Shown one piece after another: positions 10,303 through 14,239 of a DNA stretch of 36,404 bases. The translations under genes were made by a program, and so were the position numbers. Location of the stretch: positions 1 through 36,404 of the forward strand of contig QCRX01000007.1 in NCBI GenBank assembly GCA_003209275.1, given 5' to 3'. Origin of the DNA: Prochlorococcus sp. AG-463-P14. GTDB taxonomy: Bacteria > Cyanobacteriota > Cyanobacteriia > PCC-6307 > Cyanobiaceae. Under the pieces are notes generated by a model. The model searched no databases. It saw nothing but the letters and a program-made list of their open reading frames with translations, and had not been told where the DNA came from. The first letter of the stretch is position 1. Each line of letters begins with the position of its first letter.

Positions 10303-11616
10303 TTATTTGATGTATTCCTTGAGTACCCCATTCCTATTTGGATGACGGAGCTTTCTTAGGGCTTTTGCTTCTATTTGTCTGATTCTTTCTCTGGTGACAT
10401 CAAAAATTTGTCCGATTTCTTCTAGCGTCTTCATTCTGCCATCGTCTAATCCATATCTAAGTCTAAGAACATCTCTTTCTCGTGGACTAAGAGTTGCAAG
10501 AACTCCTTCCAAGTCTTCTCTAAGTAGGTTTTTAGCAACATCTTGTTCAGGGTTTTCAATATCTGCTTCTATAAAATCACCTAGGCGTGAATCTTCTTCT
10601 TTTCCTATCGGTGTTTCTAGTGATATTGGTAATTGTGCACTTTTAGCTATAAATCGAAGCTTTTCGATTGTCATTTCCATGCTTTCGGCAATCTCTTCTT
10701 CAGTTGGCTTCCTGCCAAACTCTTGACTAAGTACTTTTGTTGTTTTTTTGATTCTAGAAATTGTTTCGTAGAGATGTACTGGAAGGCGAATTGTTCTGCT
10801 TTGGTCTGCGATCGCTCGTGTGATTGCTTGGCGAATCCACCAGGTCGCATAAGTCGAGAACTTGTAGCCCTTTTCGTGGTCAAATTTTTCAGCAGCTCGA
10901 ATCAGTCCAAGACTGCCTTCTTGAATTAGATCTTGGAATGAAAGACCTCTGTTCATATATTTCTTTGCGATTGATACAACTAGACGAAGATTGGACTGGA
11001 CCATTTTTTCTTTAGCTCGTCTACCAAGCATTAGTCGGCGACGAAATTTAACTAAAGGCATTTGCTCTAGGGCTGCCCATTCTTTAGTGGTCGGATATTG
11101 ACCATTGTCCACTTCAAATTGAGCTGCAACTTCTTCGAGGTGAAGTAAGTCGGCAATTTTACGGGCGAGTTCAATTTCTTCGTCTGGTCTGAGTAGTCTG
11201 ATGCGACCAATCTCTTGTAAGTAGACCCGAATAGAGTCTTCTGTATAAACCCCTTTAGGACCAATTTTTATACTTGCAAGTGCTTTTGCTCTTGCTTCTT
11301 GTTCACTAAGAGAGATTGATAATGTTGGACTTATTTCTTCTTTTATATCTGCAATAGAAGGCGATGTTTCTTTTATTACTGGATCTGTTGGCTTAATGCC
11401 TTCTTTTTTCTTAGAAGATTCTGAGATGGTTGATGCCTTTACGTTCTTAGTAGTAGTTGAAGGTACAGCCTTCTTTGAAGATCGTGCAGCTGAAGTGGGC
11501 TTGACTTTTTTTGCTTTGCTTTTTGTTTTGGATCCTCCTTTAGGAACGGCTGCACTTTTTTTTGCAGCTTTTGGCGGAGTCTTTACATTTGAAGCTTTTG
11601 TGGCAGCAGCAGTCAT
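10303..11616 (-). CDS. rpoD: Principal (group 1) sigma-70 factor RpoD/SigA
   Basis: A 437-residue sigma factor. Residues 1-100 are a low-complexity Lys/Ala/Ser/Thr-rich tail; region 1.2 begins at about 127 ([16 protein letters not shown]); region 2 at about 205-275 has [12 protein letters not shown], the core-binding [20 protein letters not shown] and the -10 recognition helix [15 protein letters not shown]; region 3 follows ([11 protein letters not shown]); region 4 has [10 protein letters not shown] and the -35 recognition helix [18 protein letters not shown]. The full set of regions and the exact 2.4 sequence point to the housekeeping factor, not an alternative group 2 sigma, though cyanobacterial group 2 factors are close relatives. 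The gene diverges from priA across a 370-bp region. Confidence 0.92.
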
Positions 11617-11986
11617 ATCGGTAAAGGCGAACGAAAGATGAACTCAACTAGGCAGTAAAAACCTGAAAAAGAAAAGCAAATGACCATCACACCAGGGGAG
11701 ATCACAGATCGTTTAGCTATAAACCAATAAAATTAATGATCAGAAAACCTCTGTGGGATTTTGGTTGATCGTCTATTGGCTATTAAAGGAACTGTGTTTT
11801 GGTTAAACCTGAAAAGGAGGTATGCATGGACTGGGGCAGGGATGTCAGGGGCTTTCTCAGACCGGCCGACCAATAATTGGAGTTATCCAAATGGTTCTAG
11901 CTTCGTGTCTTCCCACTGGACGGAACTCTGCTCAGTTCCGACAACAGCCTTTGAGCTGTCCAACAACCACATTTTAAAAAAAATTT
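11617..11986. other. 370-bp divergent intergenic region, rpoD leader and priA upstream sequence
   Basis: The sigma-factor side (11617-11810) is AT-rich. From about 11813 to 11965 the sequence is richer in GC than its surroundings and carries a full Shine-Dalgarno sequence, short overlapping reading frames and two adjacent hairpins: GGAACT/AGTTCC at about 11923-11940 and ACAGC/GCTGT at about 11943-11959, enclosed by TGGAC and GTCCA. It ends in an A-rich tract just before priA. I do not recognise a known riboswitch, 6S RNA, SRP RNA or tmRNA here. Promoters for both genes must lie in this region but I cannot place them with confidence. Confidence 0.5.
11814..11820 (+). promoter_or_regulatory. 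Full Shine-Dalgarno sequence AAGGAGG ahead of short reading frames
   Basis: AAGGAGGT is an exact complement of the 16S anti-Shine-Dalgarno end, unusual in this window where most genes lack one. Five bases separate it from ATG 11826, which opens a 16-codon frame ending at 11876 (MDWGRDVRGFLRPADQ). ATG 11822 in another frame opens a 51-codon ORF to 11977, but with a one-base spacer. A third frame is also open from TTG 11761 to 12003. A leader peptide for priA or an RNA element is possible; which, if any, frame is translated is not known. Confidence 0.4.
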
Positions 11987-14239
11987 GTGACCTCGGCAAG
12001 TAATAAATCATTATTGGTTTTTCAAGAGGCTGATGTCTGGCTGGATGTCGGACGAGAAGGGAAGTGCTTTACCTATATAGATCGACATAGATATGACGTG
12101 AATACTGGAGATTTGGTGTTGGTCAGATTGCGCGGAAGATTAATGCAGGGCCTTGTTGTCGCTAAGCGTCCTTGTATTTCTTTGGAAAGGCGCTTGGCAG
12201 ATATCGAAAAGTTGGTTCAGCGAGCGGCAGTCGATTCTCAATGGCAAGAATGGTTGGAAGCAATGGCTGCAAGTTGTTATACAAGTTCTTTCCGAATGTT
12301 AAAAGCGGCTTTGCCACCAGGTTGGCTAGGTCAGCGAGATGTCTCCTCTAGTGAGCCAAGACTTTTTTGGTGGGTTTGCTTGAAATATGGTGATTTTTCG
12401 AATGAAAAGCTTCCATCTAGGCAGGCAGCTCTTGTGGCTGAATTGTCTGTAAGGGGTGGGGGAGGATGGCAGAAAGATCTTCAAAATGAAGGATTTTCAC
12501 TGGGAGTTATTAAAAGTCTGATTTTGAATGGGAGAGCTTTTCGTGAAAAACGAGAATTTAATCCTTTAGGAAATACTTCAATAGATTTACAGGAAGATAA
12601 GTTTGAGAAGGAATTACCCCAAGCTTTAACTGATGAACAGCAATCAGCACTAAATACTTACGAATCTCAGTCTCCAGGTGAGGCACTTTTGCTCTGGGGC
12701 GTAACAGGTTCAGGAAAGACTGAGGTCTATTTGCAAATTGCAGATCGTGAATTGAATAAAGGTAATAGTTGCTTGATACTTACTCCTGAAATTGGATTAA
12801 TCCCACAATTAGTTGATCGATTTAAGAGAAGATTTGGATCAAAAGTATTTGAATATCATAGCGGTTGTTCTAATCGAGAGCGAGTAGCTACTTGGAGGGA
12901 ATGCCTGACTTCTTCAGTGCCTTTAATTATTGTTGGAACTAGATCATCAATCTTTCTTCCTCTGTCACTTTTAGGCCTGATAGTTCTTGATGAAGAGCAT
13001 GATAGCTCCTATAAACAGGAGTCGCCAATGCCCTGCTACCACGCTAGAGATCTTGCTTTAGACCGCGCACATAGAACCGGAGCAAAAGTGGTGCTAGGTA
13101 CTGCTACTCCATCACTTTCGACATGGAAATCTATTTATCCAGAAGGAGAAATTGTACTTGCACGTTTGACTCGACGTATTTCAAATAGACCCTTGCCAGA
13201 AGTAAATATAGTTGACATGAGACAGGAATTAGCCTCAGGTCACCGTCATCTTGTTAGCAGAAAATTGATGGAATATCTTCGAAAATTACCTGAAAAGAAT
13301 GAGCAAGCTGTTGTATTAGTTCCAAGAAGGGGTTACAACACTTTTTTGAGTTGTCGAAGTTGTGGAGAGGTTGTGCAATGTCCAAATTGTGATGTGGCTC
13401 TAAGTGTTCATAGGAAAAGAAACGGATATCAGTGGTTGAGATGTCACTGGTGTGACCATCGAGAGGAAATTGAGGTGAATTGTAAATACTGTGGCTCTAA
13501 AGCTTTTAAGCCTTTTGGAGCAGGCACTCAAAGAGTTATGGAACAACTTTCAGAAGAACTTCAAGAGTTGAGATTGCTTCGTTTTGATCGTGATTCAACA
13601 GGAGGTAGAGATGGCCATAGAAAGCTTCTTGAGCAATTCGCTTCTGGGAAAGCAGATGTGCTCGTAGGCACTCAGATGCTTGCAAAAGGTATGGACTTGC
13701 CTCGAGTAACGCTAGCTGCTGTTATCGCGGCAGATGGTTTATTGCATCGACCTGATTTGCAGGCAACTGAGCAAAGTCTTCAGTTGATGATGCAGCTTGC
13801 AGGACGTGCTGGTAGAGGTGAACTGCCTGGAAAAGTATTTGTTCAGACTTATTGCCCCCAACACCCTGTGATTATTCACTTGGTGGATGGTCGTTATGAG
13901 GAGTTCTTAAAGCATGAGGGCAAGCTGCGACATGAAGCACGTTTGGTGCCCTATAGCCGAGCATGTTTGCTTCGACTTTCAGGAGAATTTGCTTCAATTA
14001 CTGCTACTGCTGCGGCTGCTTTAGCTGAAAGGTTAAGGCCTTTATGTGAATCAAAAGGGTGGGTTTTGATTGGACCCGCTCCTTCTATGGTCGCGAGGGT
14101 TGCAGGTAGAAGCCGATGGCAACTTTTACTTCATGGGCCAGAAAAAAGCGAATTGCCTCTCCCTAAAGGAACCACTCTTTGGAATGAATTGCCTCGTGGA
14201 GTTTTTTTATCAATAGATCCAGATCCAATTCAGCTATAA
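11987..14239 (+). CDS. priA: Primosomal protein N' (PriA helicase)
   Basis: A 750-residue superfamily 2 helicase that reloads the replisome at stalled forks. Seen: an N-terminal DNA-binding domain, Walker A GVTGSGKTEVY at about 238-248, DEEH at 335-338, the GTRSSIF and TATPSLSTW motifs, and a zinc-binding domain with eight cysteines at about 456-502 (CRSCG, CPNCD, CHWCD, CKYCG). Helicase motifs V and VI are present as GTQMLAKGMDLPRV and QLAGRAGRG. The start GTG 11987 (MTSASNKSL) gives the normal length. The gene ends four bases from the convergent 14244 gene. Its leader (11813-11977) is unusual, see separate entries. Confidence 0.96.
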   Translation: MTSASNKSLLVFQEADVWLDVGREGKCFTYIDRHRYDVNTGDLVLVRLRGRLMQGLVVAKRPCISLERRLADIEKLVQRAAVDSQWQEWLEAMAASCYTSSFRMLKAALPPGWLGQRDVSSSEPRLFWWVCLKYGDFSNEKLPSRQAALVAELSVRGGGGWQKDLQNEGFSLGVIKSLILNGRAFREKREFNPLGNTSIDLQEDKFEKELPQALTDEQQSALNTYESQSPGEALLLWGVTGSGKTEVYLQIADRELNKGNSCLILTPEIGLIPQLVDRFKRRFGSKVFEYHSGCSNRERVATWRECLTSSVPLIIVGTRSSIFLPLSLLGLIVLDEEHDSSYKQESPMPCYHARDLALDRAHRTGAKVVLGTATPSLSTWKSIYPEGEIVLARLTRRISNRPLPEVNIVDMRQELASGHRHLVSRKLMEYLRKLPEKNEQAVVLVPRRGYNTFLSCRSCGEVVQCPNCDVALSVHRKRNGYQWLRCHWCDHREEIEVNCKYCGSKAFKPFGAGTQRVMEQLSEELQELRLLRFDRDSTGGRDGHRKLLEQFASGKADVLVGTQMLAKGMDLPRVTLAAVIAADGLLHRPDLQATEQSLQLMMQLAGRAGRGELPGKVFVQTYCPQHPVIIHLVDGRYEEFLKHEGKLRHEARLVPYSRACLLRLSGEFASITATAAAALAERLRPLCESKGWVLIGPAPSMVARVAGRSRWQLLLHGPEKSELPLPKGTTLWNELPRGVFLSIDPDPIQL

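Follow-up and report, generated by a model that had tools for sequence, protein, structure and literature searches.

A conserved pseudoknotted RNA element at the start of priA in Cyanobiaceae

The region between a sigma factor gene and priA

We analyzed a stretch of 36,404 nt from contig QCRX01000007.1 of Prochlorococcus sp. AG-463-P14 (hereafter the window, whose positions serve as coordinates throughout). Two divergent genes frame the region of interest. The gene on the minus strand encodes a sigma factor of the RpoD/SigA type (NF005643, 724.9 bits at a cut-off of 500) and the gene on the plus strand encodes the replication restart helicase PriA (TIGR00595, 544.6 bits at a cut-off of 230, together with PriA domains). 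Between them, and running into priA, lies a conserved structured RNA. The start codon of priA is predicted to be a GTG inside the 3' end of this RNA, the choice of codon being our reading of the sequence. The features are as follows; percentages refer to paired cells in a count over 62 loci described below.

10303-11616, minus strand: divergent sigma factor gene (RpoD/SigA type)
11814-11977, plus strand: Shine-Dalgarno (SD)-like AAGGAGGT and open reading frames from ATG 11822 and ATG 11826, unconserved and judged to be chance features outside the system
11835-12004, plus strand: whole conserved structured RNA (30-locus alignment, covariance model match of 183.4 bits, 62-locus covariation)
11836-11839, plus strand: 5' strand of P1 (pseudoknot), GCAG, pairing with 11928-11931
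11845-11851, plus strand: 5' strand of P2, UCAGGGG (96.3%)
11852-11858, plus strand: CUUUCUC, the asymmetric internal loop that separates P2 from P3 (conserved in the alignments)
11859-11862, plus strand: 5' strand of P3, AGAC (97.6%; A-U exchanged for G-C in 7 loci)
11865-11901, plus strand: variable P4/P5 arm (75.3% and 81.7%, with many compensatory changes)
11907-11910, plus strand: 3' strand of P3, GUCU (62-locus count)
11912-11919, plus strand: 3' strand of P2, CCCACUGG (CCCnCUGG in the alignment; 62-locus count)
11921-11940, plus strand: P6 hairpin, CGGAAC/GUUCCG (88.0%; changes on both sides at 5 of 6 pairs)
11928-11931, plus strand: 3' strand of P1, CUGC, inside the P6 hairpin loop (unsupervised scan and 62-locus count)
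11944-11959, plus strand: P7 hairpin, ACAGCC/AGCUGU (85.3%; changes on both sides at 5 of 6 pairs)
11960-11983, plus strand: linker CCAACA followed by an A-rich single-stranded stretch (AUnnUAAGAAA-like in relatives; alignments)
11987-14239, plus strand: priA
11996-12000, plus strand: conserved 3'-terminal motif GCAAG (61 of 62 loci have it, or GCAAC, among the last 25 nt of the element)

A first-pass annotation had described the region as a GC-richer leader and had named three possible explanations, namely a small RNA, a short gene or a leader peptide acting on priA. The features it listed are present in the window: the SD-like AAGGAGGT at 11814-11821, ATG 11822 (51 codons) and ATG 11826 (16 codons), a third open frame from TTG 11761 to 12003 (80 codons), two adjacent hairpins at 11921-11940 and 11944-11959, which correspond to P6 and P7, and TGGAC at 11917-11921 facing GTCCA at 11958-11962. 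The stretch is indeed richer in GC than the sequence just upstream (0.47-0.53 versus 0.34-0.43 in 100-base windows), but the contrast is modest, with windows inside priA reaching 0.49.

A leader peptide or short gene starting at ATG 11822 or 11826 would agree with the good SD-like sequence and the open frames seen in the window itself. The relatives argue against it. Only two of the 62 loci, the window and L007, have AGGAGG within 45 nt upstream of the conserved block. Each frame through the element is open in at most 26 of the 62, and none of them has an open frame in phase with the element's 3' end. The lengths of the element fall on all residues modulo three (21/23/18 loci), and the products of the 51- and 80-codon frames, the two longer ones, have no match in NCBIfam or Pfam. 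Because the SD is so rarely present, the frames are not kept and the lengths are not confined to multiples of three, we conclude that the region is not coding. A leader peptide, or an attenuator working through a conserved short frame and its ribosome-binding site, was rejected on the same grounds, and we give next to no credence to a coding explanation. What did stand of the three initial proposals was a structured RNA and the connection to priA.

A consensus scan of 11600-12200 found no terminator-like site and no promoter-like site on the plus strand; the two promoter-like sites it found both lie on the minus strand. A promoter -10 at TATGCAT (11821-11827) was considered and dropped, being missed by the scan and, by eye, inconsistent among relatives.

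Conservation and fold of the element

When 99 genomes, among them that of the window, were searched at the DNA level, 42 of the 61 genomes belonging to its family (again counting its own) gave matches at E < 1e-5. The best matches span approximately 11836 to 12001, that is, 3' of the SD and both ATGs. The conserved unit at 11835-12004 is therefore not the segment first singled out: it starts 3' of the SD and both ATGs, it extends beyond 11977, where that segment ended, over the predicted priA start, and it holds a pseudoknot that had been missed. An alignment of the 30 best-scoring matches (L001-L030, window included, weaker matches left out) contains 31 invariant columns out of 180, paired as well as unpaired, together with many indels and a variable middle arm.

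The structure was derived using RNAalifold and hand inspection. Its core is an H-type pseudoknot in which the 3' strand of P1 lies in the P6 loop and the P2-P5 domain is inserted in the first loop. All helices of the element are 4 to 7 bp long. In the window the innermost pair of P7 is C-A, the helix in the derived fold being ACAGCC/GGCUGU. CAAC directly after P7 (11961-11964 in the window) is kept in 49 of 62 loci without an established pairing partner, and the GCAAG/GCAAC motif at the 3' end, which in L098 occurs as GCAAG just past the aligned end, is likewise without a partner. Compared with shuffled sequences, a single-sequence fold of the region is unremarkable (z -0.60), so the window by itself allowed few conclusions.

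The fold was examined by covariation across a broader set of loci. We built a covariance model (R1) that lacked P1 and used it to align 62 loci from 62 genomes, drawn from 66 sources; four sources without an R1 match (L109, L110, L112 and L119) were left out. On this alignment, with P1 added and a candidate helix P8 removed, 39 pairs were counted. Standard pairs make up 88.1% of 2287 cells, and changes on both sides occur at 30 of the 39 pairs, compared with 19.4 ± 1.9 in shuffles and at most 18 in slid versions. The covariation score reaches 0.263, against 0.124 ± 0.005 for shuffles and no more than 0.083 for slid versions. Since related sequences may beat shuffles without any structure, the comparison with slid versions, in which relatedness is preserved, is the more telling one. 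The covariance analysis that had been proposed for this region shows helices with compensatory changes in the 62 loci.

The pseudoknot helix P1 is paired in 95.0% of cells and shows changes on both sides at 4 of 4 pairs, evidence which is independent because P1 was absent from the model that made the alignment. In an unsupervised scan of all column pairs, P1 pairs reached z values of 9.6 and 9.2 and ranked among the six highest, with some unpaired column pairs also at z 7. Compensatory versions can be seen by eye, such as GCAC/GUGC in L095 and GCUG/CAGC in L089. We regard it as practically certain that this is a real conserved structured RNA.

The position between divergent genes might alternatively suggest conservation as DNA, for instance as a promoter or operator of the sigma factor/priA pair. 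Against this, compensatory changes run across the helices including the pseudoknot, and 47 of 62 loci carry a U-G pair in P2 that corresponds to an A-C mismatch on the opposite strand; a DNA element is accordingly about as implausible as a coding one. It is mainly this U-G pair, together with the position before priA, that assigns the RNA to the plus strand. The overall count of G-U against A-C (123 to 92) weakly favors the same strand.

Parts of the fold vary between lineages. The P4/P5 arm varies most: in L093, L095, L097 and L103 it is shorter, or a small hairpin on P3 takes its place, so neither its sequence nor its length is essential. Members of genus g5 (L087, L088, L089 and L105) have no evident P6 and another stem in place of P7, for example GGUUGG/CCAACC, but P1 (CCUG/CAGG in L105, overlooked by the alignment and found by eye), P2, P3 and the 3' motif are still recognizable by eye. 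An additional hairpin, P0, occurs 0-5 nt before P1 in L082, L083, L086, L030, L077, L079 and others (for example GGGC-CAAA-GCCC). It scores at least 10 in 15 of 29 GC-rich loci versus 6 of 33 AT-rich loci; a longer form is seen by eye in genus g9 and in G049. Most AT-rich members, the window among them, show no such hairpin or an unclear one.

Three further pairings were tried and not retained. The helix TGGAC/GTCCA, which would enclose the two hairpins, is complementary in 89.4% of cells in the 30 loci, but 271 of 500 shuffles reach its covariation. Its UGG/CCA part is complementary in most of the 62 loci, but the next pair is A-C in 27 of them, and A-U replaces G-C in only 3. As it conflicts with P2, P6 and P7, this helix was kept only as a possible alternative state. 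The P8 hairpin ACUUG/CAAGU over the priA start is complementary in 88.7% of cells in the 30 loci and 72.5% in the 62, and was dropped. For a long-range helix between an upstream UGUUG/GUGG and CCAACA, shuffling the upstream sequence gave duplex energies just as good (mean z -0.21 in the 33 AT-rich and 0.09 in the 29 GC-rich loci).

Position at priA and distribution across genomes

At every one of the 62 loci the element is followed on its own strand by PriA homology, which overlaps it or lies within approximately 75 nt of its end; this upholds the link to priA made initially. In the 30-locus set priA is downstream in all 30 and a divergent sigma factor gene upstream in 29, the exception (L015) starting near a contig end. 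A 24-letter core pattern with 22 specified letters occurs in 73 stretches of named genome records; priA follows directly in 70, and the other three stretches end within 190 nt of the match. At all 62 loci the structured element overlaps or abuts the start of the gene, the placement expected of an autogenous translational operator.

The start codon itself is not fixed relative to the RNA. An in-frame ATG, GTG or TTG lies inside the element in 48 of 62 loci, in 34 of them as a GTG or TTG starting 17 nt before the last base, and in the remaining 14 every possible priA start lies past the end of the element. These 14 loci also keep the 3' GCAAG/GCAAC, and in L027 the motif sits between an in-frame stop and the first possible start. 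Since the motif is kept where it does not code, the 3' end is conserved as RNA and not as protein; the shifting start also means that there is no fixed distance between RNA and start codon.

The sigma factor gene is adjacent in 60 of 62 loci as well, so adjacency alone cannot show which neighbor matters, and the position next to priA could be inherited synteny. The distance from the element to the conserved part of the sigma factor gene varies from 188 to 1025 nt (approximately 1.7 kb in G058), whereas the overlap with the priA start stays, which we count in favor of priA as the relevant neighbor.

The same observations bear on whether the RNA acts in trans as an independent small RNA whose gene merely abuts priA. 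A length of approximately 170 nt and a strong conserved fold would suit such an RNA. A candidate from 2005, cluster 229, has also been tabulated with sequences of MIT9313 and WH8102 and an alignment length of 161 columns; it was classed among 'putative ncRNAs' as an untested computational prediction (Table 1 of PMC1242208). Length and species fit, and cluster 229 may be the present element. In that case the element was predicted in 2005 without a structure, a distribution or a link to priA (Table 1 of PMC1242208). On the other side, the block runs into or abuts the priA start in 62 of 62 loci, which a free small RNA would not need, and the consensus scan of 11600-12200 revealed no terminator-like site. 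The latter result argues for a leader over both an independent small RNA and a transcription attenuator, for which no intrinsic terminator was found by the scan between leader and gene. We therefore consider an independent small RNA improbable.

Within Cyanobiaceae, model R1 detected the element in 348 of the 400 genomes searched; of the 251 genomes with a completeness of 90% or more, 236 have it. Nearly all gave a single match per genome. Among the 52 genomes without an R1 match, 13 were checked for priA. Five of these have no convincing PriA match in the assembly, in two a contig end cuts off part of priA, and in G170 the upstream sequence breaks off with the contig 86 nt short of the PriA homology. 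The remaining five, four of genus g9 and G049, have a priA preceded by what we judge, by eye and not by score, to be a diverged version of the same plan. In g9 it consists of GGUCAGU with ACUGACC in the loop of AGCG/CGCU (one P1 mismatch in two g9 genomes), and in G049 of CGGCAG with CUGCCG in the loop of GACGA/UCGUC. G049 scores 12 bits with R1 and has no match with the broader covariance model R2, and neither model gives a credible match in g9. For G105, G134, G140, G162, G103, G116 and G159, which lack an R1 match, R2 gave no credible match either. Four g9 loci (L110, L112, L113 and L119) carry a long stretch before priA, reaching up to about 300-500 nt upstream. It aligns among g9 species, differs strongly from the sequence in other Cyanobiaceae and may contain an enlarged form of the element.

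Searches of wider samples used the stricter filters of Infernal, which lose weak matches. In 386 genomes of the phylum R1 gave 58 matches within the same family; 13 further matches were weak (E 0.001-0.095, no more than 22.4 bits) and came from a single other family. R2 gave 36 matches within the family in 291 genomes of the class and five weak ones (E 0.016-0.043, at most 23.2 bits). Unfiltered R1 searches of 19 of 30 outgroup priA loci yielded nothing above 5.8 bits, and no similar plan before priA was seen by eye in seven plus-strand outgroup loci. Across the phylum and class samples and the outgroup priA loci, no convincing copy was found outside Cyanobiaceae. Named strains with the core pattern include Synechococcus WH7803, RCC307 and WH 5701. 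The 73 stretches with the pattern comprise 72 with cyanobacterial titles, no viral contig, and one from a metagenome-assembled genome that bears the name Bifidobacterium breve (L208; the core lies at 1246 of contig CALPNT020000028.1). In L208 the element is followed by priA and preceded by a sigma factor gene, so the contig looks picocyanobacterial and its label or bin is probably wrong.

Proposed function and relation to known RNAs

The window and 14 relatives had no match to Rfam 15 at gathering thresholds, in agreement with the initial impression that the region fits neither a recognized riboswitch nor a known cyanobacterial RNA. Lax Rfam scans of three stretches gave only matches far below gathering scores. 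No tRNA or tmRNA gene, including the two-piece cyanobacterial tmRNA, was detected by ARAGORN or by Rfam.

We propose, with somewhat better than even confidence, that the element is a folded 5' leader of the priA mRNA that would act in cis on priA translation. The RNA would belong to the priA transcript, its pseudoknotted domain would serve as a binding site, and binding would alter access to the A-rich start region 3' of P7. Against the proposal stand the result that the scan of 11600-12200 gave no promoter-like site on the plus strand, the shifting priA start and the adjacency of the sigma factor gene in most loci. The conserved CUUUCUC loop at 11852-11858 is a candidate binding site. A two-state switch might also be envisaged, in which the CUGG of P2 pairs instead with the CCA after P7; neither the 30-locus nor the 62-locus check gave covariation support for this alternative pairing.

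As to what reads the fold, the presence of one copy per genome, at the same gene at every locus checked, suggests a protein as the most likely reader. A cis-acting element bound by a protein is nevertheless a tentative assignment, and autogenous repression by PriA itself, our first candidate, is a rather speculative one.

Another reading is that of a riboswitch, in which the P2/P3 internal loop and the P1 pseudoknot would bind a small ligand such as a nucleotide or alarmone and PriA synthesis would be adjusted to the state of replication or nutrition. The compact pseudoknot with a conserved start region adjoining it is in keeping with this, as are the 31 invariant columns over 30 loci, some of which lie in the P2/P3 internal loop. 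A conserved, covarying, aptamer-like fold was found in what would be the 5' leader of the priA transcript. A riboswitch that senses a common metabolite is usually found in front of several genes, whereas this element occurs at a single gene at every locus checked and as one copy in nearly all genomes, and it matched no Rfam riboswitch. A riboswitch, with a small ligand as the reader of the cis-acting element, is the main rival of a protein reader, though an unlikely one.

The fold might instead be a processing or decay site at which a ribonuclease cuts and thereby sets the stability of the priA mRNA. In Bacillus subtilis, RNase III is reported to cut the priA mRNA within a long-range structure (PMC11780869). 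The duplexes described there are 10-36 bp long (PMC11780869), as opposed to helices of no more than 7 bp here. A site of the B. subtilis type, with a duplex of at least 10 bp, was therefore rejected, the helices of the element being 4 to 7 bp, and we consider a processing site very improbable.

Returning to the proposed cis-acting leader, we put it forward as a possibility, with rather less than even confidence, that the element represents a new class of ligand- or protein-sensing RNA switch that is confined to Cyanobiaceae and would set the level of PriA. If so, replication restart would be under RNA-level control in some of the most abundant photosynthetic cells. A single-copy pseudoknotted RNA tied to priA throughout the family would be a handle on how replication restart is set, and the alignment, the pseudoknot and the named carrier strains make it directly testable. 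Control of priA through its leader is not known to us. In the literature searched, the sole result on priA at the RNA level was the RNase III cleavage in B. subtilis (PMC11780869). Regulatory proteins are reported to be very few in Prochlorococcus (PMC2518516), which makes it likely that conserved RNA elements carry real control.

In the literature searched, which lay mostly outside subscription journals, we recognized no description of an RNA element at cyanobacterial priA. The terms 'priA' and 'primosom' do not occur in the main texts of PMC1242208, PMC2518516, PMC7368042 and PMC2662882, nor in those of PMC2864571, PMC8632094 and PMC11109978. An array study of MED4 left out every probe with a gene of the same orientation less than about 100 nt away (PMC2518516), so that most of a leader like the priA element would have been hidden from it. 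As far as these searches reach, the element is new in its fold and in its target.

Several known systems invite comparison. Similar in presumed working are autogenous leaders of replication proteins, namely the pseudoknot leader of phage T4 gene 32 and the operator of T4 gene 43. As in the priA element, a folded or pseudoknotted 5' element is combined there with an A-rich stretch at the start codon of a replication protein. The priA element differs in being larger (P1 plus the inserted P2-P5 domain) and chromosomal, and binding to it is putative; the comparison concerns working and makes no claim of kinship. The Yfr small RNAs of Prochlorococcus and Synechococcus are separate transcripts, unlike the proposed priA leader. 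They share with the element that they are lineage-conserved RNAs encoded between genes of related organisms (PMC1242208, PMC2518516). The glnA, Downstream-peptide, psaA, PhotoRC and Cyano-1/-2 RNAs, which comprise structured leaders and riboswitch candidates, are likewise conserved, covarying RNAs of marine cyanobacteria, several of which precede genes (PMC2864571); the priA element stands apart from them in that 'priA' and 'primosom' do not appear in the main text describing them and the window has no Rfam match. The priA mRNA of B. subtilis, finally, also contains a structure that bears on the fate of the RNA, but it holds duplexes that span 10-36 bp among the sites described (PMC11780869), whereas the cyanobacterial element is built from short helices and a pseudoknot and is conserved within one cyanobacterial family.
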